IMG/VR virus record: IMGVR_UViG_3300030333_004111
Coordinates: 1-33,832 of that record
Source of the DNA: a virus
Length of the DNA: 33,832 nucleotides
Reading direction: 5' to 3' (one strand)
The position numbers and the translations under genes were made by a program. Positions 1,351 through 18,612 of this stretch are shown here, piece by piece. Below the pieces are notes generated by a model that was not told where the DNA came from, ran no database searches, and saw only the letters and a program-made list of their open reading frames with translations. The first letter of the stretch is position 1. Every line of letters starts with the position of its first letter.

Positions 1351-1425
1351 TGGCAGGGCACCACGGATTCGAACCGCGACCGCAAGGATTTGGAGTCCTG
1401 CATCATACCATTAGAACAATGCCCT
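1351..1425 (-). tRNA. tRNA-Trp (anticodon CCA)
   Basis: Read on the minus strand the sequence folds as a complete 72-nt tRNA plus encoded CCA. The acceptor stem pairs AGGGCAT with GTGCCCT (one U-G pair), the discriminator is G, the T loop is TTCGAAT, and the anticodon loop is CTCCAAA, giving anticodon CCA for UGG (Trp). CCA is encoded at 1353-1351. It starts 11 bp after the stop codon of the small basic gene 1436-1585 and is probably processed from the same transcript as the tmRNA. Confidence 0.95.
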
Positions 1426-1894: not shown

Positions 1895-2312
1895 GTAAAC
1901 TTTATTTAAGTGCTGTCCCCAAGCCATAAGGATGAAGGGTTGCTTTTAGGAGGCTTGTATTTATCCCCCAGCACTTAAATAAGGTGGCTCTCCTTTGGAT
2001 AACAAGGCGAGAGCCTCTCCCCGCTAGCTTATGCAGCTAGTTGATAAACGTCGTCGTTTGCGTTTATATTTAGGTTTTGCACTGTAACGGGTGCTCCCGA
2101 TTCTCCACTAACCTCTGATCCCTTGTCGAAACCTGACTCCCCCATCAGAAACATACTAGCTGGGACTTAGAGTTCTTTGTCATGCCCATGAACCTCGGCT
2201 TCTCCATTCTAAGATGAATCCGCGACACTATGTCTAACGTGCAGCTGACCTTGGTTACTAGTATGCTTTTGGTGGAGGAGGGGGGAATCGAACCCCCGTC
2301 CACTGAACCGTA
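1895..2312 (-). ncRNA. ssrA: Circularly permuted two-piece tmRNA (transfer-messenger RNA)
   Basis: tmRNA rescues stalled ribosomes: its tRNA-like part enters an empty A site and its message part adds a degradation tag. Order on the minus strand is permuted. First the acceptor piece: strand 2305-2309 for helix 2, T arm with TTCGATT loop (2297-2281), 3' acceptor strand CTCCTCC (2280-2274), discriminator A and encoded CCA (2272-2270). Next an intervening segment (2269-2144). Then the coding piece: 5' acceptor strand GGGGGAG (2143-2137), which pairs fully with CTCCTCC, the tmRNA-typical TTTCGAC, a small pseudoknot-like element, and the tag frame at 2061-2029. After the tag come hairpins including GGCTCTC/GAGAGCC and a 14 bp helix (1902-1915 with 1969-1982). 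The order is that of alphaproteobacterial ssrA, giving two RNAs after the loop is removed. Outer ends are approximate; the coding piece may reach about 1810. Confidence 0.9.
2029..2061 (-). other. tmRNA proteolysis-tag reading frame, ANDDVYQLAA
   Basis: From the resume codon GCA the frame reads ANDDVYQLAA followed by TAA. It has the usual tag layout: an Ala-Asn-Asp start (SspB/ClpA-type contact region) and a hydrophobic Leu-Ala-Ala end, the ClpXP signal. With the Ala carried on the tRNA part, the tag added to stalled proteins would be 11 residues. Confidence 0.92.
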
Positions 2313-2328
2313 CTTTAGCTTCATCGAA

Positions 2329-2667
2329 TTAGCTGAGTACAGTTACTCCCAACACTTTCTCTTTAAGGATGAGAAGGTCAATCTTTGAAGCTTTAGCAAG
2401 CGTAGGCATTTCAGTACCTAGTGCAGCTTCGATTTGATTAACAATGTCAGCCTTGCGAATGATGGGGGCACCTGTCTTAGTCATACGTGCCTGTGCTTTG
2501 TAGATGCCCATGCTGGACAACTTAGCAATTACGCTTCTTACTGGCTTGTCAAACTCTTCTGCCAGCTCTTCCGCAGTAGCGCGAGTTGGGTTTGCAGAGT
2601 AAACTTGCTCCATTCGCTCTACCATGTCGTCGGTGTAGTTCTTTGCTACGTCAACGTCTTTAGTCAT
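2329..2667 (-). CDS. Helix-turn-helix-like phage protein, paralogue
   Basis: The start chosen (MTKDVDVAKNYTDDMVERM) has a CGGGAGA Shine-Dalgarno seven bases upstream, giving 112 residues; another ATG at 2706 lies right at the promoter's expected start point and would add 13 residues as a leaderless product. The central part (AEELAEEFDKPVRSVIAKLSSMG) looks like a helix-turn-helix, and the C-terminal half has Lys-rich segments ending KIDLLILKEKVLGV. The protein at 6139-6432 shares the same plan (YT-x-MV, RSVI-x-K-x-x-S-x-G, then a helical tail), so the two are paralogues, likely DNA-binding regulators. The gene is directly upstream of the tmRNA acceptor piece, whose helix 2 begins about 20 bp after its stop, and the two are probably co-transcribed. 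Confidence 0.75.
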   Translation of the reverse strand: MTKDVDVAKNYTDDMVERMEQVYSANPTRATAEELAEEFDKPVRSVIAKLSSMGIYKAQARMTKTGAPIIRKADIVNQIEAALGTEMPTLAKASKIDLLILKEKVLGVTVLS

Positions 2668-3383: not shown

Positions 3384-3412
3384 ATTATATTCGCTCCGGC
3401 ATTTAATGTCAA
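3384..3412 (-). promoter_or_regulatory. Sigma70 promoter for the 3201-3359 gene
   Basis: On the minus strand: TTGACA (3412-3407), 17 bp, TATAAT (3389-3384). Perfect consensus. Confidence 0.9.
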
Positions 3413-3578
3413 GAAGTTTTTTCGTTAAGGTCAACGCACCCCAATTCCGGGGGGCCGCGTGCGGGGTTTGCAAGTCAAGTTTTATTTTCACGAATTGTCT
3501 AAAATTTTCTAAGATTTACGCACCCGTACCAAGACCTGCACGGGTTTGAATTAATTTGGCCAATCGTGCAAATAAAGC

Positions 3579-3607
3579 TTGACATGCGCACCCGTTGCGC
3601 GTATAAT
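3579..3607 (+). promoter_or_regulatory. Array promoter 1 (rightward sigma70)
   Basis: TTGACA (3579-3584), 17 bp, TATAAT (3602-3607), perfect consensus. The spacer contains GCGCA...TGCGC, an inverted repeat that could be an operator. Confidence 0.85.
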
Positions 3608-3660
3608 GGCGCGGGGAGACTTGTGGTTTGATTTAATTTGGCCAATGGTGAAAATAACAC

Positions 3661-3689
3661 TTGACATTGCATCGCTTTGGCACTATAAT
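3661..3689 (+). promoter_or_regulatory. Array promoter 2 (rightward sigma70)
   Basis: TTGACA (3661-3666), 17 bp, TATAAT (3684-3689), perfect consensus; 82 bp after promoter 1. Confidence 0.85.
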
Positions 3690-3785
3690 CGGCGCGGGGC
3701 ACTTTACTTTGATTTAGCACTTGCACTTTGGCGCCAGGAGACTTGCGCCTTTTGATTTAATTTACTGCACACCCGCAAAAAAGAC

Positions 3786-3814
3786 TTGACTTTCTTAGCA
3801 CTTGCACTTAAAAT
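3786..3814 (+). promoter_or_regulatory. Array promoter 3 (rightward sigma70)
   Basis: TTGACT (3786-3791), 17 bp, TAAAAT (3809-3814), one mismatch in each box; 125 bp after promoter 2, with the defective unit between them. Confidence 0.75.
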
Positions 3815-3854
3815 GGCGCAGGGGGCATTTAGGGTAGATACTTCACTTTGCCAC

Positions 3855-3906
3855 TGGCGCCCGCGCGCCAAAATTTTCAAGCGACGCGCTTTTGGGTGGG
3901 TTTTTT
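3855..3906 (+). terminator. Possible terminator of the array transcripts
   Basis: Two hairpins follow the array: TGGCGC-CCGC-GCGCCA (3855-3870) followed by AAATTTT, and AAGCG-ACG-CGCTT followed by a GT-rich stretch and six T (3901-3906). Neither is an ideal intrinsic terminator. If active, array RNAs would be roughly 50-280 nt; if not, they run antisense into the leftward operon. Confidence 0.35.
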
Positions 3907-3914
3907 CCGGAGAG

Positions 3915-3930
3915 TGTTTCACGTGGAACG
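3915..3930. other. parS: parS-like centromere site
   Basis: TGTTTCACGTGGAACG matches the chromosomal parS consensus (TGTTTCACGTGAAACA and its GTTCCACGTGGAAC variants). The 14 bp core GTTTCACGTGGAAC is a near-perfect palindrome around CACGTG. ParB proteins bind such sites and spread. No parA or parB gene is visible here, so a partner would be elsewhere in the phage genome or be the host ParB. Confidence 0.75.
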
Positions 3931-3937: not shown

Positions 3938-4105
3938 TTATGAGCCGCTCAAAATTTCGTATCGCTTGCCGTTTGGAGCAACCAAAATATCGCCGGTCCG
4001 AAATTCAAAGCCGGCTTGTCTAGCGCGAGCCGTAGCCGCATCGCCAGAGCCAGCCTCTACAACAAAGCGCTCGCCTGATTTTGTGATAATTGTGTATTCG
4101 TTCAT
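3938..4105 (-). CDS. Small hypothetical beta-rich protein (55 aa)
   Basis: The start MNEYTIITKSGERF follows an AGAGG site and a consensus promoter; longer frames would cross the promoter. The product alternates short beta strands and turns (YTIITKSGERFVVEA, FRTGDILVAPNGKRYEIL), with an Ala/Arg-rich helix in the middle (GDAATARARQAG). The fold could be a small nucleic-acid-binding or SH3-like barrel, but nothing in it is diagnostic. It is monocistronic, and its stop codon lies 8 bp from the parS-like site, so it could be linked to that locus. Base composition is richer in GCGC words than the genes to its left. Confidence 0.65.
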   Translation of the reverse strand: MNEYTIITKSGERFVVEAGSGDAATARARQAGFEFRTGDILVAPNGKRYEILSGS

Positions 4106-4132
4106 TTTTATAACCTCTGATTTAATAAAGCC

Positions 4133-4162
4133 ATTATAAGCCGCGCGCGGGCAAATTGTCAA
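4133..4162 (-). promoter_or_regulatory. Sigma70 promoter for the 3938-4105 gene
   Basis: On the minus strand: TTGACA (4162-4157), 18 bp spacer containing GCGCGC, TATAAT (4138-4133). Confidence 0.85.
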
Positions 4163-4201
4163 GCATTTATTTTACCTATTTTTGGCGCCGCCAAACGAGA
4201 A

Positions 4202-4849
4202 TTATTCTCGTTTGGATTCGAGGCGGTCGCAGAGCCTACGGATTAGCTCAAGCCGTCCCACGCCTTTTTGGTTGTAGTCGATAACGTCCCAACCGCCGCG
4301 AGAAATTACGCGCTCTTTAAGCAGAGTCATTTCGTCATAGTATGAAAGCGCGCGCTCGTCATTTGGCGATAGCTTCCAATATTTTAGAGGCGAAATTCTG
4401 CGCTCCTCAATTCGTCGCGCTTGCTCATCTTCAGAAATCGAGAGCCAGAATTTAATAAACCGAGTGCCGAATCTAACAGTCTGGTTTATCTCCCATGATT
4501 CAACGTCTCGCATAAAATTGCGATATTGCAAATCAGAGCACCAGCCGTTGATTTTCTGAACCAATGCGCGAGAATACCAAGAGCGATCATAGAACACGAT
4601 TCCGCTGTCTGGCATTTTCTTCGTCCAGTAACCAAGCCAATTTTCCATGGTGGATTTGCTAGGCTTAGTCGATAGAACAACCGAGAAAAGCCGAGGCGGT
4701 AGGTATTGAGTTAATGCGCGAATAGTGCCAGATTTTCCAGCCGTGTCGCGCCCCTCTAAAACAACCGCGACAGGCTCGGTTAGAGCCTCCGCGATTTCGT
4801 TTAGTCGCGCTTGCTCGCGCTCCATTTCGTTTAGTTTAAGATCAGCCAT
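4202..4849 (-). CDS. ppk2: PPK2-family polyphosphate kinase
   Basis: PPK2 enzymes move phosphate between polyphosphate and nucleotides, usually making NTP from NDP (or NDP from NMP) at the expense of polyphosphate. With the GGAGG-supported start at 4849 the protein has 215 residues. The whole family core is present: Walker A loop EGRDTAGKSGT (residues 32-42), Walker B and lid-base motif YDRSWYSRA (87-95), FIKFWLSIS (131-139), the Arg-rich lid RRIEERR (145-151) and PLKYWKLSP (154-162). It is somewhat shorter than typical bacterial PPK2 (230-300), losing mainly terminal parts. It is the last gene of a leftward operon and overlaps a tiny membrane-protein gene. Donor direction and nucleotide preference cannot be read from sequence. 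In a phage it may supply NTPs or dNDPs from host polyphosphate, matching the phosphate transporter at 7391-8329. Confidence 0.88.
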   Translation of the reverse strand: MADLKLNEMEREQARLNEIAEALTEPVAVVLEGRDTAGKSGTIRALTQYLPPRLFSVVLSTKPSKSTMENWLGYWTKKMPDSGIVFYDRSWYSRALVQKINGWCSDLQYRNFMRDVESWEINQTVRFGTRFIKFWLSISEDEQARRIEERRISPLKYWKLSPNDERALSYYDEMTLLKERVISRGGWDVIDYNQKGVGRLELIRRLCDRLESKRE

Positions 4850-4935
4850 ATAATGCCTCCGATTACAATTAGATCCGCGCAAATGGAATAAACCATATAA
4901 ACGCGGAATAAGATTTTAGCTAGTTTTTTTGACAT
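4831..4935 (-). CDS. Tiny single-pass membrane protein (34 aa)
   Basis: A 34-residue frame begins MSKKLAKILFRVYMVYS and ends in a hydrophobic run (LIVIGGIIWLIL). The basic N-terminus followed by about 20 apolar residues gives one transmembrane helix with its N-terminus inside. A GAGGAA site lies 8 bases upstream. It fills the gap between the 4916-5488 gene (overlapping its end by 20 bp) and ppk2 (overlapping its start by 19 bp), which fits the tight packing of this operon. It is small enough to be chance, so moderate confidence. Confidence 0.5.
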   Translation of the reverse strand: MSKKLAKILFRVYMVYSICADLIVIGGIIWLILN

Positions 4936-5488
4936 AATTTGGTTCCTCATTTTTTCCTAGTGGAGTCGGACACCCATGAATCCCATTTTCGCGCTTTTGG
5001 GTTACGATGTCAAGCCCTAAATCAAGATTTTTTTGCCGCCATGAATTAGCGAATCTTGAAGCCGCCTGAATTTTAGTCATATTGTAAAATTCAGAAGAGC
5101 CGCCGACAGGCTTTTCGCCCTTGGTTCTCAAATCTTGAAATAAGCCAGTAACGCGAAAAGGCTTATTCCGAGAATGAAAAAATTGTTCAGCCGATAAAGT
5201 TTTATCGAACGTGCCAAGTTTAGCAAAGTGAAGCCGCCCGATTAGAACGCCCCTATCTAGCGAAAATGAACGCTCCATATCCGCGAGCGTGTTAATGATG
5301 CGAGATTGAACGCCATTAAAGCCGCCCGAATAACATTCTTTCGCAAAGCCGTCCTTAAAAATCTGCATCCCAACAAATGCGGGGACGTAATCGCCAAGGT
5401 TAAGCAATTCCCAAAGATAGTTATATCCTAGATCGGCATAGGGTGAGCCGTTTGAAGTTTCTGGTTTTGAGTTAGATGTAATTTCCAT
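4916..5488 (-). CDS. Hypothetical protein (190 aa)
   Basis: I do not recognise this soluble 190-residue protein. It opens with a polar Asn/Ser/Glu-rich tail, then has aromatic-rich segments (YNYLWELLNLGDYVPAFVG, FFHSRNKPFRVTGLF) and a Lys/Asn-rich C-terminus ending YVKKTS. No signal peptide, membrane segment or Walker motif is visible. Its stop is followed by the tiny membrane gene, and its start overlaps the stop of the HAD gene by one base (ATG/TAA sharing A), so it is co-translated within the PPK2 operon. Confidence 0.7.
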   Translation of the reverse strand: MEITSNSKPETSNGSPYADLGYNYLWELLNLGDYVPAFVGMQIFKDGFAKECYSGGFNGVQSRIINTLADMERSFSLDRGVLIGRLHFAKLGTFDKTLSAEQFFHSRNKPFRVTGLFQDLRTKGEKPVGGSSEFYNMTKIQAASRFANSWRQKNLDLGLDIVTQKRENGIHGCPTPLGKNEEPNYVKKTS

Positions 5489-5955
5489 TAGGCGATTGCC
5501 TCCATATAGTTATTGTAGGATTCGGGAGCGACAACGCGAACCCGATTTTTTCTTAGCGTTTCTTGAACGTCTAAATCGTCATCAAAAAGAATAGTATTCT
5601 TGGTGAAAGTATCCCATTCGATTCCATTAGTGCGAGCCAATAAAAGCAATTCGGCAAGTTTGAATTGGCCGCATGGCAAATTGTTATGCTTAGATCGTGA
5701 CATAATCAGCCGAGGCGTTAAGCCGTGATGATCTAAGAAAGCGTAATCGATAGCGGAAAGAACGCGCGAAGTTAAAATTCCGCAATCCAAACCCTCTGCC
5801 ATTGCGTTCCGCAATACGTTAGCATACGGGAGCAAAGTATCAGCCCAAATATTTTTGGCCGTGTTCATTCGCTTCCAATCGTCTAGCGTTTCGCCTTGGC
5901 GGTGTGTCGAGTCGATGCAAGTGCCATCGAGATCAAATAAGAAGAGATGTCGCAT
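5488..5955 (-). CDS. HAD-superfamily phosphatase
   Basis: The 155-residue protein has the four HAD motifs in order: FDLDGT at residues 7-12 (Asp8 nucleophile, Asp10 acid/base), LTSR at 61-64 (motif II), Lys99 in FKLAELL (motif III) and FDDDLDV at 124-130 (motif IV Asp pair). There is little cap insertion, as in the small phosphatases of phages, including the 3'-phosphatase half of T4-type polynucleotide kinase. There is no P-loop, so it is a stand-alone phosphatase. The substrate (nucleic-acid 3'-phosphate, nucleotide or other) cannot be told. It overlaps the upstream small membrane gene by 23 bp. Confidence 0.8.
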   Translation of the reverse strand: MRHLFLFDLDGTCIDSTHRQGETLDDWKRMNTAKNIWADTLLPYANVLRNAMAEGLDCGILTSRVLSAIDYAFLDHHGLTPRLIMSRSKHNNLPCGQFKLAELLLLARTNGIEWDTFTKNTILFDDDLDVQETLRKNRVRVVAPESYNNYMEAIA

Positions 5956-6133
5956 AACCGATGATTCCTATAGTGTTTAAGATGATAAGATTATAGCATT
6001 GTTTGTGCCACGCTTGCAAGCATAATAATGCCAGCCCTAGCATAGCCATAACCTTGCCGATGTTCGTGTCGATTAGGAAAGGAGCCGCGCATAATAGCGC
6101 GGTTCCAGTCCAAGCGATTAGAGCCGAGAGCAT
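5933..6133 (-). CDS. Small multi-pass membrane protein (66 aa)
   Basis: Nearly all of this 66-residue protein is hydrophobic: three membrane segments at about residues 3-20, 26-42 and 47-65, separated by short loops (LIDTNIGK; WHKQCYN). It could be a small transporter-like or modulator protein, or a holin, but no family is recognised. It lies 5 bp after the stop of the HTH paralogue and overlaps the HAD gene, inside the PPK2 operon. Confidence 0.65.
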   Translation of the reverse strand: MLSALIAWTGTALLCAAPFLIDTNIGKVMAMLGLALLCLQAWHKQCYNLIILNTIGIIGYATSLLI

Positions 6134-6138
6134 AGGGG

Positions 6139-6432
6139 TTACCCTATGTTCTCAAGAACAGAGCAAAGCTCTGCTTTGGTGAGGTCACCCTCACGCTCTG
6201 GCAAAGCCAACGCTTTGCGAATCGCTCCAAGGTATTCAGCCTTGGTAGGATCAACGCGCTTAGAAGCCGCGCGCTTAGGTTGCGCGATGTATTCTAAGCC
6301 AAGGCTTTTCGCCTTAGAGATAACCGAGCGATGGCTCAAGCCAAAGTCAGCCGCAAATTCCTTAGCCTTAGCAAGGTTAAGGGGTTGAGCCGCGCCCAAT
6401 TTCGCGACCATTTCGGGAGTATAATTAGACAT
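6139..6432 (-). CDS. Helix-turn-helix-like phage protein, paralogue
   Basis: This 97-residue basic protein begins MSNYTPEMVAKLG and contains AKEFAADFGLSHRSVISKAKSLG (residues 24-46), a helix-turn-helix-like stretch that aligns with the 2329-2667 protein (YT-x-MV ... RSVI-K-S-G) and with the partial gene at the left edge. The C-terminal half (KAEYLGAIRKALALPEREGDLTKAELCSVLENIG) matches the paralogue's tail in layout. AGGAGA lies 5-10 bases before the ATG. A perfect 10 bp inverted repeat in its leader (6453-6477) is a candidate operator, which would fit self-regulation. Codon use is GC-richer than in the other two paralogues, as in the rest of its operon. Confidence 0.75.
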   Translation of the reverse strand: MSNYTPEMVAKLGAAQPLNLAKAKEFAADFGLSHRSVISKAKSLGLEYIAQPKRAASKRVDPTKAEYLGAIRKALALPEREGDLTKAELCSVLENIG

Positions 6433-6452
6433 AAAAGTCTCCTAAAGTTAAG

Positions 6453-6477
6453 AATTAATCGACCCATTCGATTAATT
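6453..6477. promoter_or_regulatory. Candidate operator: 10 bp inverted repeat
   Basis: AATTAATCGA, 5 bp, TCGATTAATT: a perfect palindrome located between the promoter and the ribosome-binding site of the HTH gene. In RNA it could also form a hairpin just upstream of the Shine-Dalgarno. Confidence 0.6.
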
Positions 6478-6486
6478 TATAAAGCC

Positions 6487-6515
6487 ATTCTCTCATAAAA
6501 AACGCAAAAAGTCAA
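6487..6515 (-). promoter_or_regulatory. Likely promoter of the HTH-to-PPK2 operon
   Basis: On the minus strand: TTGACT (6515-6510), 17 bp, GAGAAT (6492-6487; 4 of 6). Weaker than the other promoters, perhaps needing activation. Confidence 0.55.
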
Positions 6516-6541
6516 GCATTTTTTTATACCGATTTGTCATA

Positions 6542-6742
6542 TCAAGCCGCCTTCATATAACCAAAAATCGCCGCGCCAAATGCAATCATTCCGTTGGCAA
6601 TTAGACAGCCGCCGAAAATTTTGCCGCCTATAGGCGAGGCCATAGTAGCCGACGCTTCCCAAGCTAACAAGCCGGTGAACGTAAACGCCACGCCTACCGA
6701 GATCAAAAAGATTCCGATGGTGATATTGATAATCATTCTCAT
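6542..6742 (-). CDS. Small two-pass membrane protein (66 aa)
   Basis: The 66-residue product has two hydrophobic segments, about residues 3-24 and 42-62, joined by a polar loop (EASATMASPIGGK). It starts MRMIINITIGIF and ends GYMKAA. No family is recognised; the layout fits a holin-like or superinfection-type membrane protein but also many others. It is the first leftward gene after the divergent control region, with a weak promoter 40-65 bp upstream and an ATG preceded by no strong ribosome-binding site. Confidence 0.6.
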   Translation of the reverse strand: MRMIINITIGIFLISVGVAFTFTGLLAWEASATMASPIGGKIFGGCLIANGMIAFGAAIFGYMKAA

Positions 6743-6778
6743 TTAGCCGTACCCTCGAGTATCGATTGACAAGCCCCT

Positions 6779-6807
6779 AGTATGGGGGAAGCCGCCCCGA
6801 AAGTCAA
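6779..6807 (-). promoter_or_regulatory. Possible promoter for the 6542-6742 gene
   Basis: On the minus strand: TTGACT (6807-6802), 17 bp, CATACT (6784-6779; 4 of 6). A TTGACA at 6766-6771 faces it on the plus strand, so the two -35-like boxes form an imperfect inverted repeat. Confidence 0.4.
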
Positions 6808-6875
6808 GCCCCAATCATGGAGATATAATGGAAAGAAAAATAAAATAAAAAATCCTTATAGATCAAGGAGTTACG

Positions 6876-6940
6876 GCGGGGCCTGCCTGTATGGGGGCGG
6901 TTCTTTGACTTGACGCCCGCCCGCCTCGCGGGCGACCCCC
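6876..6940. other. GC-rich structured block in the divergent control region
   Basis: Within an otherwise AT-rich gap (6743-7088) lies a GC-rich block: a perfect hairpin GCCCGC-CTC-GCGGGC (6919-6933), flanked by GGGGG (6893-6897) and CCCCC (6936-6940) that can pair outside it. No U tract follows, so it is not an intrinsic terminator. It could be a protein-binding site or a transcript-end structure. No gene is seen in the gap. Confidence 0.45.
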
Positions 6941-7030
6941 ACATGTACGACTTTGGGTATTTTTTAAACTAATCTTTACAAAAATTTAACAAAATTTTAA
7001 CACTATCTTCATCAAATTGTAATATTTTTA

Positions 7031-7039
7031 TGATATAAT
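7031..7039 (+). promoter_or_regulatory. Extended -10 promoter for the rightward arm
   Basis: TGATATAAT at 7031-7039 is an extended -10 element (TGnTATAAT) without a good -35 but with A/T tracts upstream (AAAATTTAACAAAATTTTAA). Transcription would start near 7046 and give a leader of about 43 nt before the AAGGAG of the first rightward gene. Confidence 0.6.
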
Positions 7040-7088
7040 ATACCAGAAATCAATGGAGATTTCAAGAAGTATTTTAAGGAGAGCTTAA

Positions 7089-7400
7089 ATGAAAGCAATA
7101 TTTGCCCTATTCTTTCTTTTATTGTCAGGCGCATGCGCCTCAGCAGATCCGTACATAGAGTACAAAAATGAGTTGAAGTATAGAGATACCGACTTCAGAG
7201 ACGACATCCATCACTTTAGACTTGGGTATAACTTCGAAAAATTTTATTTTGAAGGAGGCCCCCGCTCTGATGGCTACGCTACTGAGGTAGGGTATAAGAT
7301 TAAACAAGGCCCACTCACGTTTAAAGGCAAATGGGAAGGATCAAAAACTGAAGATTTCGATCATAAGTTGGAGACCGAGATTAGATACACATGGAACTAA
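7089..7400 (+). CDS. Exported small beta-rich protein, possible outer-membrane barrel
   Basis: The 103-residue protein starts with a clear signal peptide (MKAIFALFFLLLSGACASA, cleavage after ASA near residue 19). The remaining 84 residues alternate polar and aromatic residues as beta strands (YIEYKNELKYRD, HHFRLGYNFEKFYFEGG, EVGYKIKQGPLTFKGKWEG, KLETEIRYTWN), ending in an aromatic residue plus Asn, like small outer-membrane barrels or periplasmic beta proteins. AAGGAG precedes the ATG. It overlaps the transporter gene by 10 bp, so the two are coupled: it may be a partner of the transporter (for example an envelope-side helper) or a surface-modifying protein. Confidence 0.7.
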   Translation: MKAIFALFFLLLSGACASADPYIEYKNELKYRDTDFRDDIHHFRLGYNFEKFYFEGGPRSDGYATEVGYKIKQGPLTFKGKWEGSKTEDFDHKLETEIRYTWN

Positions 7401-8329
7401 TATGGATGACGATAGGCTTCTTCCTAGCGTCATACGCTGTAATCGCAAATGATTCAGTACAAACATTAGGAACATGGATAGCTTCTAATAAAGAACGTTT
7501 TGATTGGAGAATAATGTGGGGCGCAGCTTCGGCTGTCCTCCTATGGGCCATTTGGTATGGTTGGACAGTATACGGAGGGGATATCTCGTATGGGAGATTA
7601 ACAAGAATCCCGTATGTAGAAGTCCAATGGTACCATGCTTTAGCTCCGGGAATACTTCTTATACTTACAAGATTTGGTATACCCGTATCAACTTCCTTTT
7701 TAGTACTAAGTGCTTTTGCAAGTACTTTCGTACTCGAGAAGATGTTGCTAAAGAGCGTGGCAGGATACGCGATTGCGGCCGTAGCCGCATACGTCATATG
7801 GTGTGCAATCACACGATACTTCGATGAAACCAAAAAAGTTCCCGAAAACCAAGAAGGTTTTTGGAGAACAACACAATGGATAGTTACAGGCTTCCTATGG
7901 TGGACTTGGTTGTCGCATGATATGGCGAATATGGCAGTTTTTCTTCCACGAGAAATACCTTGGGAAGTAATGATTGGCATTTCTACGCTATTTGTATCAG
8001 GACTAGGCTGGATGTTTTACGAACAAGGAGGTAAAATTCAGCAAATTGTTCTGTCAAAGCAAAATACGCGCTATGTACGAAGTGCAACTTTGATTGATTT
8101 AGTATATTTAGCTATATTATTCTTCTTTAAAGAGTACAATAACATACCTATGTCTACAACTTGGGTGTTTATTGGTCTTTTATCAGGAAGAGAGCTAGCT
8201 CATGCTACTTTTTCTAACAAGGTTCAATTTAAAGGAGTATTTCCTATCGTGGCAAGAGACTTCTTTAAGTTAATGGTAGGTGTTGCTGCATCTATTGGGA
8301 TAATAATTTCAATCCATACGCTTTCTTAG
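7391..8329 (+). CDS. PiT-family inorganic phosphate transporter
   Basis: The PiT (PHO-4, PF01384) family imports phosphate by cation symport across the inner membrane. This 312-residue protein has 8-9 membrane segments and the two inverted family signatures: ANDSVQTLGT at residues 19-28 and, in the second half near residues 172-182, WLSHDMANMAV; each half also has its Ser/Thr-rich helix motif (GIPVSTSFLVLSAFAS and NNIPMSTTWVFIGLLSG). It is shorter than E. coli PitA (about 500) because the central cytoplasmic loop is missing, as in compact bacterial members. It is coupled to the upstream exported beta protein and followed by a terminator, so the pair forms a separate transcription unit before the packaging genes. 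Sulfate transport is a less likely alternative. It would raise phosphate uptake during infection. Confidence 0.82.
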   Translation: MELIWMTIGFFLASYAVIANDSVQTLGTWIASNKERFDWRIMWGAASAVLLWAIWYGWTVYGGDISYGRLTRIPYVEVQWYHALAPGILLILTRFGIPVSTSFLVLSAFASTFVLEKMLLKSVAGYAIAAVAAYVIWCAITRYFDETKKVPENQEGFWRTTQWIVTGFLWWTWLSHDMANMAVFLPREIPWEVMIGISTLFVSGLGWMFYEQGGKIQQIVLSKQNTRYVRSATLIDLVYLAILFFFKEYNNIPMSTTWVFIGLLSGRELAHATFSNKVQFKGVFPIVARDFFKLMVGVAASIGIIISIHTLS

Positions 8330-8337
8330 CTTTTTTC

Positions 8338-8368
8338 AATGCTGCTAGCTCCGGTTAGCAGCATTTTT
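8338..8368 (+). terminator. Intrinsic terminator after the phosphate transporter
   Basis: ATGCTGCTA ... TTAGCAGCAT stem with a 7-nt loop followed by TTTTT. Rightward. Confidence 0.9.
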
Positions 8369-8391
8369 CCTACCCCTCCCAAAAACAGTTC

Positions 8392-8420
8392 TTGACTTTA
8401 CACCCTTGTTAAAGTATAAT
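8392..8420 (+). promoter_or_regulatory. Sigma70 promoter for the packaging/structural operon
   Basis: TTGACT (8392-8397), 17 bp, TATAAT (8415-8420). The ATG of the next gene at 8428 coincides with the expected start point, so the first message would be leaderless. Confidence 0.88.
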
Positions 8421-8427
8421 TTCTCTC

Positions 8428-8889
8428 ATGGCTAAAGAAGTGACTACAATTTCTCCAGAAGGACTGGAAATAGCAAACTCGTACCTTACTTTCGGAAATA
8501 TTCGAGGAGTTGTCGAGCATCTTGGCGTTAATGAAAATGCAGTAGTGGAAATCCTAAATAAACGAGAGGTCAAGAGATACATTGATACTGTCTATTTGGA
8601 TATGGGCTATCGTAATAAGAATAACATTGCTTCCGTATTGGATAATATGATACAAACCAAACTAGAAGAAGCAGAAGAAACTGGAGTTTACTCTAACAAA
8701 GATTTAGCAGACTTATTACAAATGGCTCATAAGATGAGAATGGACGAGATTAAAGCACAATCAGATCTCGAAAAAGCTCATACAGCCAATATTAGAAGTC
8801 AGACTAATGTACAAATTAATGAAGGTGTACCTTTCGGCCAGGGCAACTACGGTAAGCTCATGGAAAAGTTGATGAAGGATGTCGAATAA
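8428..8889 (+). CDS. terS: Terminase small subunit (putative)
   Basis: Small terminases bind the packaging site and load the large subunit. This 153-residue protein has an N-terminal helix-turn-helix-like region (residues 8-50: GLEIANSYLTFGNIRGVVEHLGVNENAVVEIL), a central helical region, and a long Lys/Glu/Gln-rich helix (KMRMDEIKAQSDLEKAHTAN) as in the oligomerisation part of the family. The C-terminal GKLMEKLMKDVE is typical of the TerL-contact tail. It is the first gene of the rightward structural operon, although TerL follows only after eleven small genes, an unusual separation. The ATG lies 7 bases after the -10 box, without a Shine-Dalgarno. Confidence 0.75.
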   Translation: MAKEVTTISPEGLEIANSYLTFGNIRGVVEHLGVNENAVVEILNKREVKRYIDTVYLDMGYRNKNNIASVLDNMIQTKLEEAEETGVYSNKDLADLLQMAHKMRMDEIKAQSDLEKAHTANIRSQTNVQINEGVPFGQGNYGKLMEKLMKDVE

Positions 8890-9082
8890 AAGTGTTGACG
8901 ATGTTGCTAACGAATTATCTCGTCATGAGGTCCAATGCGAAGAAAGATGGAAAACTACCTTCAATCGATTGGATGATATTGACAGAAAATTAGATGAAAT
9001 GTTTAAACGCCAGCTCCAAATCGGAGGCGGTGTAATAGTATTTTTGGCTGGGTTAGTTGTAACCCTAGCTCTTAATAGCTAA
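8879..9082 (+). CDS. Small coiled-coil plus transmembrane protein (XhlA-like)
   Basis: The 67-residue protein has a charged N-terminal half with heptad-like spacing (EERWKTTFNRLDDIDRKLDEMFKR), followed by a C-terminal membrane helix (GGGVIVFLAGLVVTLAL). This layout matches XhlA/holin-accessory proteins of phages, which anchor at the membrane and help lysis. It overlaps the end of the small terminase gene by 11 bp. Assignment rests on architecture only; it could also be an unrelated membrane-tethered coiled coil. Confidence 0.6.
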   Translation: MSNKSVDDVANELSRHEVQCEERWKTTFNRLDDIDRKLDEMFKRQLQIGGGVIVFLAGLVVTLALNS

Positions 9083-9083
9083 A

Positions 9084-9785
9084 ATGAAACGATGGTTACT
9101 TCTTCTTTTATTATTAGTTCCAGCCTCTGCTCTTGCAGAGTACCCGGATATTGATAATATTGAGATTCCGGACATTAGTTCAGAAGAAGACAATAATTCA
9201 GGAGATAACCAAAGCGGAGATCAGGAGGGTAGCCTAAATACCAATAACCAGAATAGTACTGTAAATAGTAATAACAGGACAAATACTAACTCAAAAACAT
9301 ATAACGGGGCTGGAAGTTCTGGTATGCCGCCATATTCAGCGATCTCCCCAACCTTTATGAGTACAGGACCTGAGACCTGTCTTCAAGGAGGAAGTCAAGC
9401 ACTACAAAGTAGTGTGGTAGGGCTAAGCAGAGGGGCCTATAAAGAAGACCCTAACTGTAATAGACGAAGAGATGCAAAAGTTCTTAGTGATCTAGGAATG
9501 AAAGTGGCAGCAGTTGCTAGAATGTGTCAAGAGGTTGAAGTTTGGAGAGCAATGTTTATTTCCGGCACCCCTTGTCCAGTTCTACAAAGCGGTAAGTTAG
9601 TTGTAGGAAAGCGAGCTTACTTAGCTTTGAAGCTAAATCCCACTGTTCATATCCCCGATTACAAAGACAATAAAGACTGGTACGATAAAATACTAGGATT
9701 AGGAGAAAATGAAGGTGAAGAAGCTGATAATAACGGCGATGATAGCCGGTCTCTTTCTGATAAGTACAGAACCAGCAAACGCTGA
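9084..9785 (+). CDS. Exported Asn/Ser-rich protein
   Basis: The 233-residue product begins with a classical signal peptide (MKRWLLLLLLLVPASALA, cleavage after ALA), followed by an acidic, low-complexity Asn/Ser/Asp/Gln-rich linker (about residues 35-75), then a folded region with four Cys (ETCLQGG, DPNCNRR, RMCQEV, TPCPVL), probably disulfide-bonded in the periplasm. The C-terminal tail is acidic and its last 25 codons overlap the signal-peptide codons of the next gene. No family recognised. It may act at the cell envelope or be part of the virion. Confidence 0.65.
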   Translation: MKRWLLLLLLLVPASALAEYPDIDNIEIPDISSEEDNNSGDNQSGDQEGSLNTNNQNSTVNSNNRTNTNSKTYNGAGSSGMPPYSAISPTFMSTGPETCLQGGSQALQSSVVGLSRGAYKEDPNCNRRRDAKVLSDLGMKVAAVARMCQEVEVWRAMFISGTPCPVLQSGKLVVGKRAYLALKLNPTVHIPDYKDNKDWYDKILGLGENEGEEADNNGDDSRSLSDKYRTSKR

Positions 9786-10572
9786 CCCTCTTGACGACCT
9801 AGTTACTACTAGTGGCGATATTGTTGGACAGCTTAATTTAGCTATACTAACTGTTGCAGGACAAGGAGCTAATGCTGCAGATGGATACGTTTCTCCTACT
9901 GGAATGGCGTCCGATGCTCATATTTCTCAAGCCCAGGTTCAAGCATATAATAATGCAATTAGTGTAGTAGCCGGTGCTTCTTTTTATGGAGCACAAGAAT
10001 TTTTACAGGAACAAGGCGATGATGCTTTGGACCAAATGGAACTGGCCGTTGGTGACTTTGTAGACGCTGCAACAGAGATAGCTACAATTCTTGAGATAGC
10101 TGAAATGGCAGAAGAAGCTCAGTCCTCTGGCACAGCAGAAGACGCACAAGAAGTGGCGGAGTTTGTAGAACAGAACGAAACTACCCTAACACTACAACAG
10201 GATACTGTTGACGAGTATAATGACTCTCTTGACGAAATCGAAGAATACGCTCAAGAGGCAGCAGCCTATATAGGGTTAGCAAATAACCAGGATGCAGTTG
10301 ATTTTTTCGATACAGGAGCTGATAACAATAATGCCAGCTTCGTGGATGAAGCAGTAGCTTCTTTCGATATAAGTAATAATAGAATAGTAGTACAGTGGCA
10401 AACTACAAATAATGGTAGTGCCGTATATTTCGATGGCACAGATGGACTAAATATAGACTTATTTAAAACTAGTGCTCAAATTTTAACAGACGGAGAGTCA
10501 GAATTGTTTTATTTAACTAGCCCTACTTATCTAGGGTATGATTGTTTCTTCAATCAACAGAATTGTGAATAA
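9709..10572 (+). CDS. Exported acidic helical protein
   Basis: AGGAG lies close to the ATG. The first 25 residues (MKVKKLIITAMIAGLFLIS..., cleavage near ANA) form a signal peptide. The mature part is rich in Ala/Glu/Gln/Asp and largely helical (for instance EIATILEIAEMAEEAQ, VDEYNDSLDEIEEYAQEAAAYIG), then a beta-rich end with two Cys (YDCFFNQQNC) that may pair. The gene's first 77 bp overlap the previous gene in another frame. No family is recognised; as a neighbour of another exported protein it may be a periplasmic or envelope factor. Confidence 0.65.
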   Translation: MKVKKLIITAMIAGLFLISTEPANADPLDDLVTTSGDIVGQLNLAILTVAGQGANAADGYVSPTGMASDAHISQAQVQAYNNAISVVAGASFYGAQEFLQEQGDDALDQMELAVGDFVDAATEIATILEIAEMAEEAQSSGTAEDAQEVAEFVEQNETTLTLQQDTVDEYNDSLDEIEEYAQEAAAYIGLANNQDAVDFFDTGADNNNASFVDEAVASFDISNNRIVVQWQTTNNGSAVYFDGTDGLNIDLFKTSAQILTDGESELFYLTSPTYLGYDCFFNQQNCE

Positions 10573-11069
10573 TGTCATTAGAAGATACTGAAATAAATGT
10601 TGGTGGAGTTAAGTTCAAAGGAATCTACTTAGCTGTAGTTTTTGGCTTCGTAACTACTATTTCAGGAGCTATTTGGACAGCAAGTGAGTTGTACAGCAGA
10701 TTAGAGGCAGTCGAAGCATACGACATTCCTGATACCACTGAATTACACGAACAGGTAGAGTTAATTAAACAAGAGTTAGAGGACCAAAATATTAGTGAGT
10801 TACAAGGTAAGCTAACAGAGCTAGGAGTTAATCTAACTACTATTATTGACCAACAAAAAGAGTTGCTCTTAATTAAAGAAAGAGTCGTTCAAGCAGAAAA
10901 AGACGTAGAGTCTATGAGAACGACCGTGCAGGAGGCTAAGCTAGTAGTCAAGCAAGTAGAAGACTTTGATAGTTTTTTGAAAACTTTTGATCCAAAGTTC
11001 AAAACCTTAGACAGGGAAGTTAATGATATTTGGGAGGCTTTGGACGAAGTAGCTAATCCTTTGAACTAG
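10572..11069 (+). CDS. Membrane-anchored coiled-coil protein
   Basis: The 165-residue protein has a short polar start, one membrane helix at about residues 18-40 (IYLAVVFGFVTTISGAIWTAS), then about 100 residues of heptad-rich coiled coil (LHEQVELIKQELEDQN ... VVQAEKDVESMRTTVQ) that would project from the membrane. ATG overlaps the previous stop (TAATG). The architecture resembles an inner-membrane spanin (i-spanin) or another envelope-bridging lysis protein, but no lipoprotein partner is seen. Function inferred from layout only. Confidence 0.6.
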   Translation: MSLEDTEINVGGVKFKGIYLAVVFGFVTTISGAIWTASELYSRLEAVEAYDIPDTTELHEQVELIKQELEDQNISELQGKLTELGVNLTTIIDQQKELLLIKERVVQAEKDVESMRTTVQEAKLVVKQVEDFDSFLKTFDPKFKTLDREVNDIWEALDEVANPLN

Positions 11070-11077
11070 GAACTTAA

Positions 11078-11302
11078 TTGAATGAACTGATAATGGCGTT
11101 TGTTTTAATTACAACCGTTGAAGGCACTAAATTAGAGGACGAGTTTTATTTCAGGAATGTACACCGATGCAATCAATTCGCACATTGGATTGAACATGGA
11201 TCAACATTTCCTGATAATAGAAGGTGGGTGGATAGGCAGCTAAATATTAGCGCATATTGTATACCACGAAGACTTCCTAGAACGAGTAAGTTCTGGGATT
11301 AG
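11078..11302 (+). CDS. Small hypothetical protein (74 aa, TTG start likely)
   Basis: The TTG at 11078 has AGGAA five bases upstream, while the in-frame ATG at 11093 has none, so I favour TTG; the shorter form would have 69 residues. The protein is a mixed beta/alpha globule with two Cys (RCNQF and YCIPRR) and Trp-rich segments, and ends RTSKFWD. No recognised motif. It belongs to the run of tiny genes between the exported proteins and TerL. Confidence 0.55.
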   Translation: MNELIMAFVLITTVEGTKLEDEFYFRNVHRCNQFAHWIEHGSTFPDNRRWVDRQLNISAYCIPRRLPRTSKFWD

Positions 11303-11311
11303 GAGATAGAA

Positions 11312-11413
11312 ATGGACTTAAAATGTCATAGATGCGGCCACGATTGTCACTGTGGCAAAGAGTGCGACAAATGTATAAATGAAGTTTGTCACGACTGCGA
11401 TTGTGAGGAGTAA
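11312..11413 (+). CDS. Cys/His-rich microprotein (33 aa), probable metal binder
   Basis: This short frame, with AGGAGATAG directly before the ATG, encodes 33 residues of which nine are Cys (5, 8, 12, 14, 18, 21, 26, 29, 31) and four are His. Spacing gives CxxC, CxC, CxxC, CxxCxC clusters, enough for two tetrahedral metal sites, as in zinc-knuckle or metallothionein-like proteins. It starts MDLKCHRCGHDC. The frame is too short for standard gene callers, but codon use, ribosome-binding site and packing (3 bp before the next gene's ATG region) support it. Function unknown; metal storage or nucleic-acid binding are the main options. Confidence 0.65.
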   Translation: MDLKCHRCGHDCHCGKECDKCINEVCHDCDCEE

Positions 11414-11416
11414 ATT

Positions 11417-11566
11417 ATGGTCATGGAAATAAATGGTAAATGGTGGGGCTTTGGAGCTGAAGGTAAGCAGTTATTTGATACTAAAAAAGCTGCCGAAGAC
11501 TTCGAGAAAGGCAAAGTAACCTCAGAAAAGAAAGAAAAAGTAGAGGAAGAAAAAGACGGAGAATAG
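11417..11566 (+). CDS. Small acidic/lysine-rich protein (49 aa)
   Basis: A 49-residue frame behind GAGGAG begins MVMEINGKWWGFGAEGK and ends in a highly charged Lys/Glu tail. The WWGF stretch followed by a charged helix is a pattern seen in many tiny phage proteins (short N-terminal beta hairpin, disordered end). No function can be assigned. It sits 3 bp before the next gene. Confidence 0.55.
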   Translation: MVMEINGKWWGFGAEGKQLFDTKKAAEDFEKGKVTSEKKEKVEEEKDGE

Positions 11567-11569
11567 CTT

Positions 11570-11752
11570 ATGGCAGTTCGACGACGAAAGAAGACTTCTA
11601 AGAAAAAGAAGCCTATTCCTACTAATAAAAAACTTTACGCACGAGTGAAGGCCCAGGCAAAACGAAAGTTTGCTGTTTACCCCTCTGCTTATGCAAATGG
11701 TTGGCTTGTAAAGACTTATAAAGCCAAAGGCGGTAAATATCGCATGGGATAA
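11570..11752 (+). CDS. Small basic conserved protein (60 aa)
   Basis: The product opens with a run of Arg and Lys (MAVRRRKKTSKKKK), then a compact domain YARVKAQAKRKFAVYPSAYA followed by GWLVKTYKAKGGKYRMG. The 'KRKF..(Y/W)PSAYANGWLVK.YK..GG.YR' pattern is one I associate with a small conserved domain of marine phages and large DNA viruses; its role is not established. Highly basic composition suggests DNA or RNA binding, possibly packaged in the virion. First of four consecutive basic genes. Confidence 0.7.
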   Translation: MAVRRRKKTSKKKKPIPTNKKLYARVKAQAKRKFAVYPSAYANGWLVKTYKAKGGKYRMG

Positions 11753-11756
11753 AACT

Positions 11757-11846
11757 ATGCCAGCAGGTAAAGGAACTTATGGAAAGAAACGAGGACGCCC
11801 CGCTAAAAAAGGTAAGAAGAAAAAGGGCAAGAAGTATAAGCGCTGA
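11757..11846 (+). CDS. Tiny Lys-rich AT-hook-like peptide (29 aa)
   Basis: A 29-residue frame, MPAGKGTYGKKRGRPAKKGK followed by further Lys residues, contains one AT-hook core (RGRPAKK), the minor-groove DNA-binding motif. Over half of it is Lys/Arg, so it is an obvious nucleic-acid binder. It has no strong Shine-Dalgarno, but is nested 4 bp after one basic gene and 11 bp before the next. Too short for routine annotation. Confidence 0.55.
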   Translation: MPAGKGTYGKKRGRPAKKGKKKKGKKYKR

Positions 11847-11857
11847 GGGAGAAAATA

Positions 11858-12139
11858 ATGCCGAAGCCTCGTGGAGGTTTGACAAAGTGGTTTGGAGAGA
11901 ATTGGGTTGATATTTCTCGGCCCAAAAAGGGCGGCGGTTTTGAAAAATGTGGAAGAACTAAATCAGGTAAGAAAAGTTATCCAAAGTGTCTTCCCGCTTC
12001 TAAAGCCGCCCGCCTTACCGAAAAACAGAGAAAATCCGCTATTCGAAGAAAAAGAGCAGCGGGTAATCCAGGCGGGAAGCCGACTAACGTCCGCACCTTT
12101 GTGAAGAGAAAAAAGCGTGGCAGTAAGAAGAAGAGGTAA
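11858..12139 (+). CDS. Basic conserved phage protein (93 aa)
   Basis: GGGAGA precedes the ATG. The 93-residue product has a conserved-looking globular part (GGLTKWFGENWVDISRPKK, FEKCGRTKSGKKSYPKCLPA) with two Cys, then a Lys/Arg-rich helix and a basic tail. I recognise the pattern 'GGLTKWF.E.WVDI.RPKKGGGFE.CGR' from marine phage and virus genomes as a conserved protein of unknown function. It is suited to binding nucleic acid, perhaps as an internal virion protein. It overlaps the next gene by 23 bp. Confidence 0.72.
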   Translation: MPKPRGGLTKWFGENWVDISRPKKGGGFEKCGRTKSGKKSYPKCLPASKAARLTEKQRKSAIRRKRAAGNPGGKPTNVRTFVKRKKRGSKKKR

Positions 12140-12419
12140 GAAAGATTCACGATTAAAAAGAGCAGGGGTTTCTGGTTATAATAAACCTAAGCGAACACCA
12201 AGTCACCCGAAGAAGTCTCATATAGTTGTTGCAAAAGTTGGTAATAAAGTTAAGACCATTCGATTTGGACAACAGGGAGCAAAAACGGCTGGAAAGCCTA
12301 AGAAAGGCGAGAGCACGGCCATGAAAAAGAAGCGGGCCTCCTTTAAGGCTCGACATGCCAAGAATATAGCAAAGGGAAAGATGTCCGCGGCATACTGGGC
12401 AAATAAGGTGAAGTGGTAA
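12117..12419 (+). CDS. Basic conserved phage protein (100 aa, GTG start)
   Basis: The GTG start (MAVRRRGKKDSRLKRAGVSG) overlaps the end of the previous basic gene. The 100-residue product has about one third Lys/Arg, a central beta-like segment (SHIVVAKVGNKVKTIRFGQQG) and a C-terminal helical part (KAKRASF-type: KKRASFKARHAKNIAKGK, then AAYWANKVKW). The pattern is known to me from marine phages and virus metagenomes as a conserved protein of unknown function. Probable DNA/RNA binder. Its stop overlaps the next ATG (TAATG). Confidence 0.72.
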   Translation: MAVRRRGKKDSRLKRAGVSGYNKPKRTPSHPKKSHIVVAKVGNKVKTIRFGQQGAKTAGKPKKGESTAMKKKRASFKARHAKNIAKGKMSAAYWANKVKW

Positions 12420-12886
12420 TGATTGCAGAAGTGAGTGCCGTAATAGGAGCTCTTAACGCTGTAAATGGTGCGATAAATACCATTCGAGAGACAAAAGGGA
12501 ATGTTCAAAGTTTATCAAAAGTTTTTCAGAGAGTAAATAGTGCAGCAGAAGGGATAGCTACTATTGAAGGTCAAGTTGCTTCCGGTAAAAGATCTCTTTC
12601 GGCAAAAGAAGCTATGGATTTAGCTTTTGCTAAAAGACAACAAAGAGAGCATGAAAGGCAGCTTAAGGATCTCTTTTTGATTGCTGGAGAAATGAAAACT
12701 TATGAGGACATGAAAAAGATCCAAGCCAAGTCAGTAGCTAACGCTAAAAAAGCTGCTGCAAAGGCTTCAAGACGAAAAGCTGCACGAAAACAAGAGTTAA
12801 AGCAAGCCCTATCAATAGTTTTGATAGCTGCAGGAGTATTTCTTCTTGTAGGAATGGGACTATTCCTATACCTCGAAATGAGATAA
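12419..12886 (+). CDS. Helical protein with C-terminal membrane anchor
   Basis: I use the ATG at 12419, which overlaps the preceding stop (TAATG); an in-frame GTG two codons earlier is possible. The 155-residue product is helical: an Ala/Val-rich N-terminal amphipathic region, a Lys/Ala/Glu-rich middle (KKIQAKSVANAKKAAAKASRRKAARKQ) and a single membrane segment near the end (LSIVLIAAGVFLLVGMGLFLYL). The basic coiled-coil-like middle plus tail anchor suggests membrane association; it may take part in lysis or in DNA injection. No family assigned. Confidence 0.6.
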   Translation: MIAEVSAVIGALNAVNGAINTIRETKGNVQSLSKVFQRVNSAAEGIATIEGQVASGKRSLSAKEAMDLAFAKRQQREHERQLKDLFLIAGEMKTYEDMKKIQAKSVANAKKAAAKASRRKAARKQELKQALSIVLIAAGVFLLVGMGLFLYLEMR

Positions 12887-13216
12887 ATGGAGACCACTTT
12901 GACTAAAAGTCTGCAAAAAGGTTCGGAGTACAATCAGTTCGACTTAGATGGTGATGGTACTGTAACAGATGAAGAGATAAAAAGATCTCAAGATATGATG
13001 GAACTTGAGCTTCGCGAAGAAAAAAGTGAAGCACAAAAGAAAATGGCTTGGGTAGCATTAGGAACCATGATAGTTTTTACTGGAATACTATTTACTCCTA
13101 GTGTTTCTGAAGGAAGGGTGTCTGCACTAGCAGACTTATTAGGACTATTCTACATTGCGCAGGCTGGCGTTGTAGGAGCTTACATGGGAGTATCAGCGTG
13201 GATGTCAAGGAAGTAA
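12887..13216 (+). CDS. EF-hand membrane protein, holin-like
   Basis: The 109-residue protein has a canonical calcium-binding EF-hand loop at residues 19-30 (DLDGDGTVTDEE: Asp19, Asp21, Asp23, Thr25, Glu30), then a charged helix, then two membrane segments (about 53-70: MAWVALGTMIVFTGILF; 80-103: ADLLGLFYIAQAGVVGAYMGVS). Small membrane proteins with an EF-hand are seen in phages beside lysis or packaging genes, and could be calcium-gated holins or sensors. The gene starts immediately after the stop of the previous one. Confidence 0.65.
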   Translation: METTLTKSLQKGSEYNQFDLDGDGTVTDEEIKRSQDMMELELREEKSEAQKKMAWVALGTMIVFTGILFTPSVSEGRVSALADLLGLFYIAQAGVVGAYMGVSAWMSRK

Positions 13217-13359
13217 CGAATATAACGACTTTAATAGAAGAGATTAAAAGAGTTATTAAGCGGCCCGGAAAAATAGAAGTAGAAGAAGAAGACTCACAGC
13301 TCACGGAGTGGGAACTTTGCAGAAAGTACAGTAAAACGAGATCAATGGAACAAGACTAA
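13198..13359 (+). CDS. Small hypothetical protein (53 aa, GTG start)
   Basis: A GTG at 13198 with GGGAG eight bases upstream opens a 53-residue frame that overlaps the end of the EF-hand gene by 19 bp and ends in TAATG, sharing its last base with the TerL start. It begins VDVKEVTNITTLIEEIKRVIK and continues with an acidic part (EVEEEDSQLTEWELCRKY). Predicted helical; no motif. Coupling to TerL suggests it affects TerL expression or is a packaging partner. Confidence 0.6.
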   Translation: MDVKEVTNITTLIEEIKRVIKRPGKIEVEEEDSQLTEWELCRKYSKTRSMEQD

Positions 13360-14663: not shown

Positions 14664-14686
14664 CGATACCTGCTCAAAAATAGTTA

Positions 14687-14715
14687 TTGACATTGTACCT
14701 TAACTTTAATATAAT
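14687..14715 (+). promoter_or_regulatory. Sigma70 promoter inside the head module
   Basis: TTGACA (14687-14692), 17 bp, TATAAT (14710-14715). The predicted start near 14722 leaves about 8 nt before the ATG of the HNH gene and no Shine-Dalgarno. Confidence 0.8.
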
Positions 14716-14729
14716 TTCGGTATTAAAAA

Positions 14730-15092
14730 ATGGATTTGAAACGAGACATCGTAAAATACATAAGAGATAAAGCAAAAAATAAATATGAAAAAGGGACTGA
14801 GTGTTATATTTGTGGCTCTCAAGAAAAATTAGATTTTCACCACTATTATACTTTAAGCCCTTTAGTGCATGCTTATGTTAAAAAGAACAAGTTACTTCCC
14901 GAACATATTTTATCTTTTCGGGAAGATTTTATTCAGGATCACTGGGCGGAATTATACGAGCATACAGTAACCCTATGTCATGAACATCACTTGTTGCTAC
15001 ATAAAGTATACGGCAGAAACCCTGGCTTAGGAACAGCAACAAAGCAGGAAAACTGGGTAGAGATTCAAAGAGAAAAACATGGCATGGTATGA
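14730..15092 (+). CDS. HNH endonuclease (packaging-associated)
   Basis: The 120-residue protein has the zinc-site pair CYIC (residues 25-28), the HNH core with DFHHY (residues 35-39) and LCHEHHLLLH (82-91). HK97-type phages often encode an HNH protein between terminase and portal that works with the terminase in DNA cutting; the position here fits. It is driven by its own consensus promoter and overlaps the portal start by 14 bp. A homing endonuclease is the alternative, but the conserved position argues for a packaging role. Confidence 0.85.
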   Translation: MDLKRDIVKYIRDKAKNKYEKGTECYICGSQEKLDFHHYYTLSPLVHAYVKKNKLLPEHILSFREDFIQDHWAELYEHTVTLCHEHHLLLHKVYGRNPGLGTATKQENWVEIQREKHGMV

Positions 15093-16281: not shown

Positions 16282-16543
16282 GCTGCGACAAAAGCAGTCC
16301 ATAGCAAATCAAATTGCAGATTTTCTTAAAGAAGAAGGAGAGCTGCTTAACAAAGTGACTTATAGTGCACATACAGGAGCTCCTGTTCGGTATGCACTTA
16401 TTCAAAAGTTTTTTGGGACGTATGAAGGCTTACTTGCCTACTTAGAAACATTTCGTCCAGATGCCTTCCCTTCCTTGGAAGAGGATGCAAGAGCAGAAGA
16501 TCCTTTAGAGTCCCTATCTAAAAAATCTACTGCTACAGGATAG
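16265..16543 (+). CDS. Small hypothetical protein between portal and protease
   Basis: I choose the ATG at 16265 because GGAGG lies 6-10 bases upstream; a longer frame begins within the portal. The 92-residue product is helical and basic at the N-terminus (MPMKIRLRQKQSIANQIADF), with a conserved-looking central stretch (HTGAPVRYALIQKFFGTYEGLLAYLE) and an acidic tail. It overlaps the portal's end by 17 bp. Function unknown; head-assembly position only. Confidence 0.65.
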   Translation: MPMKIRLRQKQSIANQIADFLKEEGELLNKVTYSAHTGAPVRYALIQKFFGTYEGLLAYLETFRPDAFPSLEEDARAEDPLESLSKKSTATG

Positions 16544-16548
16544 TTTAA

Positions 16549-18558: not shown

Positions 18559-18582
18559 TAGCTTTAAATAGCTAGAGTTAAA

Positions 18583-18612
18583 AGCCGGGGGAGTTCGCTC
18601 CCCTAGGTTTTT
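18583..18612 (+). terminator. Intrinsic terminator after the capsid gene
   Basis: GGGGGAG-TTCG-CTCCCC stem with a UUCG loop, extended by flanking CC/GG, followed by TTTTT. Confidence 0.9.

Follow-up and report, generated by a model that had tools for sequence, protein, structure and literature searches.

Why should a phage carry tandem sigma70 promoters that lead into no gene and point against every gene around them? The question arises in a 33,832-nucleotide stretch of viral DNA (positions 1 to 33,832 of the IMG/VR record IMGVR_UViG_3300030333_004111; hereafter, the window), in which a gap of about 580 bp (~3361 to ~3937) holds an array of rightward promoters, and every gene on its two sides, between 92 and 6742, is read leftward (Table 1). 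The sequence-only reading had described three consensus sigma70 promoters and one damaged unit in a gene-free block with leftward neighbours. The block, the orientation of its neighbours and the damaged unit were all recovered; two of the promoters are perfect, and the third is better described as near-consensus. Units 1 and 2 lie 82 bp apart and are 71% identical across 80 nt, and the decayed unit between promoters 2 and 3 retains the unit tail, TTAGCACTTGCACTT-TGGCGCCAGGAGACTTG. Three elements had escaped that reading, namely, a parS-like site, a palindrome and a box, GGCCCCCCGGAATT. Ahead of this box lie an upstream element and a TTGACA-like -35 but no -10, and the box is conserved as a single copy in many relatives. 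The window region, used as a DNA query against cultured phages, gave no match, and the search with the small gene at 3938-4162 returned zero relatives.

Table 1. Features of the promoter array and its surroundings in the window
Feature	Position	Strand	Description
Divergent ordinary early-gene promoter	3384-3412	-	12/12; discriminator ATGTAC
Box GGCCCCCCGGAATT	3443-3456	-	Single copy, on the flank of the array opposite parS
-35-like hexamer TTGACT	3478-3473	-	Upstream of box GGCCCCCCGGAATT
Upstream element of promoter 1	starts ~3545	+	A+T-rich; from the unit logo
Array promoter 1	3579-3607	+	TTGACA-17-TATAAT, 12/12 consensus; discriminator GGCGCG
Array promoter 2	3661-3689	+	TTGACA-17-TATAAT, 12/12; discriminator CGGCGC
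Decayed array unit	~3707-3745	+	Repeat families D2-D4; neither -35 nor -10
Array promoter 3	3786-3814	+	TTGACT-17-TAAAAT, 10/12; discriminator GGCGCA; closest to parS
Palindrome TGGCGC-CCGC-GCGCCA	3855-3870		Promoterless unit end, kept beside parS in relatives
Pre-parS spacer	3874-3914	+	T run only in the window; weak terminator likeness
parS-like site TGTTTCACGTGGAACG	3915-3930		15/16 match; chromosomal parS type
Fur-box-like palindrome	4194-4212		2 mismatches; at the 3' end of PPK2, not directly after parS
PPK2 (polyphosphate kinase 2)	4202-4882	-	PF03976, E 9e-46; neighbour outside the module
HAD phosphatase	5488-5955	-	Syntenic marker; its relatives and T5 dmp relatives on the parS side

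The adjacent PPK2 protein, used as a query, gathered 80 viral loci, many of which contain two to four tandem consensus promoters, and the array recurs with equal anatomy in dozens of related uncultured phages. The expectation that close relatives would keep it was borne out: the array is conserved there, and non-coding. With 71 such units present in 35 non-redundant related loci, the array is a genuine feature and not a product of chance. The 12-base core of parS was found in 47 of the 80 loci, usually adjoining the array, and in 45 of these 47, the promoters are directed at it. Promoters often lie ~112, ~240 and ~300-380 bp from parS, the nearest -10 being ~112 bp away in many loci, and relatives carry a promoter at the same distance from parS as promoter 3 of the window (112-113 bp). 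Between the array and parS sits a conserved palindrome, TGGCGC-N4-GCGCCA, and these elements together are referred to here as the module.

As an independent approach, all IMG/VR contigs were scanned for ACTGGCGC-N4-GCGCCAAAA without recourse to PPK2 or parS, which yielded 99 stretches with 93 distinct sites, 89 of them with room for a parS check. parS (at most one mismatch) was present within 200 bp of 70 of the 89 sites, mostly 40-45 bp off, and upstream consensus promoters were identified at 82 of the 93, where 67-69 bp often separate the palindrome from the nearest -35. The other 19 of the 89 palindrome loci, about a fifth, have no parS, and in three loci (L002, L003 and L054) the array is present without it. 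Thus, parS is not obligatory, and because arrays persist in its absence, the array can be regarded as the core of the module and parS as one attachable host-protein site among several.

The logo of the 71 array units comprises an A+T-rich upstream element, CTTGACAT, a 17-bp spacer, TATAAT, and a discriminator such as CGGCGC or GGCGCG. The G+C count in the six bases past the -10 is 5.5 for the array promoters against 2.2 for other promoters of these phages, a contrast for which the p value (~1e-72) is only indicative, the sequences being related. By sequence, with their A+T upstream element, perfect hexamers and G+C discriminator, the array promoters are rRNA-promoter-like, and they are probably active as promoters. 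The tandem rRNA-type promoters of rrn P1 likewise combine an upstream A+T element, consensus hexamers and a G+C discriminator; the array differs from them in having no downstream gene or rRNA and in ending at parS. Farther downstream of the start sites, conservation is absent from the array units, and a role in cis is therefore likely; it seems that binding, or transcription as an act, matters more than the RNA product. About half of the pre-parS spacers are predicted to fold more stably than shuffled sequence, in several cases into terminator-like hairpins, with z scores of -4.1 to -6.4 in L065, L049 and L032 and of +0.3 in the window, where the search for structured RNA in the arms gave z near 0 for most pieces. 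Capture of RNA polymerase and the production of short transcripts at the array are both plausible.

The second component of the module, parS, is a 16-bp chromosomal-type palindrome, TGTTYCACGTGRAACA, with one mismatch in the window copy, which ends 8 bp before the start of the next gene. Among the 72 module loci having parS, the site is exact in 54 and carries one mismatch in 18. Its conservation across 50 sequence clusters is 1.75 bits per base, compared with 0.17 and 0.07 in the flanks, and information is lost mainly at the known degenerate positions and at the last base. Exactly one parS was detected in 22 of 30 records, which reach 101 kb in length, and two in none; a reversed control pattern matched 0 of the 30. 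Conservation above that of the flanks, the single copy and the lack of matches to the control argue that parS is under selection in the module. Alphaproteobacterial genomes contain two to four clustered copies of the identical parS, and host ParB would be expected to load on the phage site. No phage ParA or ParB scored over the cut-off in any record searched; sub-threshold ParB_N fragments in G002 and G003 were set aside as candidates for a phage-encoded ParB, and both of these records are without parS. Extrachromosomal mycobacterial prophages reportedly possess parABS cassettes with their own ParA and ParB. The module resembles such phage and prophage cassettes in placing a parS-type centromere on a phage genome, but differs from them in that no ParA or ParB of its own was found.

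parS also varies and occurs elsewhere. In L332, L333, L350, L353, L362 and L363, its central CG is changed once (CACGTG to CATGTG or CACATG), as if decaying. An exact chromosomal-type parS is present in at least 120 viral contigs (L164-L283), many of them unrelated, some with multiple copies and most without the array; among the matches listed, 2 of the 120 parS-bearing contigs have a clear array. parS occurs in phages for other reasons too.

The phages of this group are T5-like, given their T5-type portal, DNA polymerase A, split NAD-dependent ligase and a relative of T5 dmp. No Phage_integrase was found in 15 records, and signs of a plasmid-like prophage are lacking. The tmRNA of the window is permuted, a type common in Alphaproteobacteria, which points to an alphaproteobacterial host, and the hosts of the group appear, from sequence, to be marine Alphaproteobacteria; the search for the closest host by tmRNA produced short alphaproteobacterial matches only, none of them specific. 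Permuted two-piece tmRNA and tRNA are located in the window at 2029-2330 (-) and 1354-1425 (-), with tmRNAs also at 6005-6384 of L019 (tag ANDDVYSLAA) and at 10278-10606 of L062; two-piece tmRNAs were already known from some marine phages (PMC9004378). The window also encodes a fusion-like 669-aa protein (16549-18558, +) that matches the head maturation protease family as well as that of the major head protein, and in a 95.8-kb relative (L288) the structural genes are preceded by one open reading frame (5037-18980, +) encoding 4647 residues.

The neighbours of the module differ in how firmly they keep their side. All 72 loci in which dmp was identified have it on the parS side, with dmp read toward the module in 71 of them; terS occupies that side in 37 of 37. 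In the 59 loci with both PPK2 and the array, PPK2 is on one side in 44 and on the opposite side in 15. Because PPK2 switches sides, antisense control of the PPK2 operon, one of the functions proposed by the sequence-only reading, is not the general function of the array. PPK2 itself is found widely among these phages, in 163 viral stretches, is ~40% identical to the PPK2 proteins of SAR86 and other bacteria, and possibly contributes to nucleotide supply.

The explanation that we prefer, with about as much belief as doubt, is that the module, non-coding and single-copy, is a control locus that works in cis by giving DNA-binding proteins of the host a place to dock on the phage DNA; its composition suggests that these phages use such proteins to hold or steer their own DNA. 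Under this explanation, the two to four rRNA-type sigma70 promoters would recruit RNA polymerase of the host and send short transcripts one way, toward parS, where the host's own ParB clamp would load; beyond these elements, some members of the family add a Fur-box-like palindrome and a sigma54 promoter. The array separates parS from the early genes. Polymerases, whether bound or in motion, and ParB, as a sliding clamp on the side opposite the polymerases, would together create a one-sided block that divides the terminase and dmp side from the early genes. Such a block could hold entering DNA, position the genome via host ParB, or shield early promoters from ParB clamps. The likeliest use would be holding or timing the phage DNA in the manner proposed for the T5 injection stop, with ParB sites replacing DnaA boxes.

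The T5 injection stop signal has been described (PMC13250531) as a set of repeats, palindromes and DnaA boxes to which components of the host may bind. Like this region (iss; AY543070 9140-10149), the module belongs to a T5-like phage, is a single non-coding region with direct repeats and palindromes, and lies at the far end of the dmp-bearing segment, beside the late genes; in contrast to the module, T5 iss has DnaA boxes, no parS and no sigma70 promoter array. Indeed, neither a parS site (up to 2 mismatches) nor a tandem sigma70 promoter array like that of the module is present in the first 30 kb of T5, on which grounds the presence of the module in T5 itself was rejected. DnaA boxes are rare in the modules (30 in 57 kb of module sequence, ~0.3 per module), and the module of the window has zero. 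Fur-box-like palindromes are common to both regions. In about a fifth of the 93 loci, such a palindrome, AATGAGAAT-nn-TTCTCATT, is located just past parS or replaces it, and perfect Fur-like palindromes are ~177-fold denser just past the palindrome element than elsewhere. In the first 30 kb of T5, Fur-like matches (up to 3 mismatches) are confined to the annotated injection stop signal, and in the T5 relative Yersinia phage phiR2-01, a Fur-like cluster is found at the end of the terminal repeat. A sigma54-type -24/-12 sequence is present near the module in 13 loci, mostly immediately past parS. In the pre-early segment of Vibrio phage pVp-1, a non-coding region pairs a Fur-like palindrome with a sigma54 promoter; this phage also shares 25 identical nt with L340, located immediately past parS, and a sigma54-type sequence lies within them.

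Relative to dmp and terminase, the module is positioned as the inner edge of a first-entering long terminal repeat would be. Around the module, contig ends are dispersed to either side (12 within 1.5 kb versus 5.1 expected) and mark no common end, and a fixed genome end at this site was rejected. The T5 second-step transfer protein, A1, had no match in 21 records, in a search run without a positive control. By analogy, the module may work like an injection stop, a role that we consider speculative and propose tentatively. Slightly more tentative is the specific version, in which virulent T5-like phages of Alphaproteobacteria would use the ParB clamp and stacked RNA polymerases to brake or tether their own DNA at entry or in early infection, the docked protein being swapped between lineages (DnaA boxes in T5 and Vibrio phages, parS here).

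The main competitor of the docking locus is hijacked partition, a possible but doubtful reading in which the lone parS would recruit host ParB, the host ParABS/SMC machinery would move or place the genome, and the array would stop ParB from spreading onto the early genes and silencing them. The parS site is near-perfect and single-copy, with no phage ParA or ParB found, and the array, directed at parS, separates it from the early genes, all of which suits this reading. In Pseudomonas aeruginosa, ParB represses the promoters adjoining parS3 and parS4 (PMC5521831), an arrangement that is alike in having promoters beside a chromosomal-type parS but differs in lying on the host chromosome and involving ordinary genes. 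A precedent for exploitation is the mobile element SGI1, whose parS-like sites hijack the ParABS system of IncC plasmids (PMC10954446). SGI1 similarly carries parS sites for a ParB encoded elsewhere, but these are plasmid-type sites on an integrative element without a promoter array, whereas the phages described here are integrase-free and have chromosomal-type parS. Against hijacked partition, the arrays remain in loci without parS, and, with neither an integrase nor any plasmid-like prophage sign, stable partition would be of little use to a virulent phage.

An origin of replication switched on by transcription of the array, also raised by the sequence-only reading, is improbable: single-copy non-coding repeats, palindromes and predicted strong promoters would befit an origin, but GC skew turns at ~6-7 kb together with gene orientation, away from the array, and DnaA boxes are few in the module. 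Calling an origin by GC skew was itself abandoned, as the skew tracks gene direction. Harder still to credit is a decoy, in which replicated phage parS copies would strip ParB from the chromosome and disturb segregation and division; one intact parS per genome copy and no detected phage ParB are compatible with it, but a single site per genome would make a weak sponge, and the fixed coupling of parS with the array is left unexplained. Least probable are short regulatory RNAs, sponge or antisense, as the product of the array, since the predicted strong promoters and the terminator-like hairpins ahead of parS in some relatives are offset by the unconserved sequence past the start sites and the lack of a credible Rfam match, for which a trans-acting RNA was rejected, and by PPK2 lying on the opposite side in 15 of 59 loci.

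For the preferred docking locus, the consequences depend on which host proteins bind. If ParB loads at the phage parS, widespread marine phages would exploit a bacterial centromere without encoding partition proteins, a strategy for which we found no description in the open-access literature. If the injection-stop role is true, the module would provide a handle on the old question of how T5-like phages halt DNA transfer part-way, and its docking sites would let the candidate stopping host proteins be read off.
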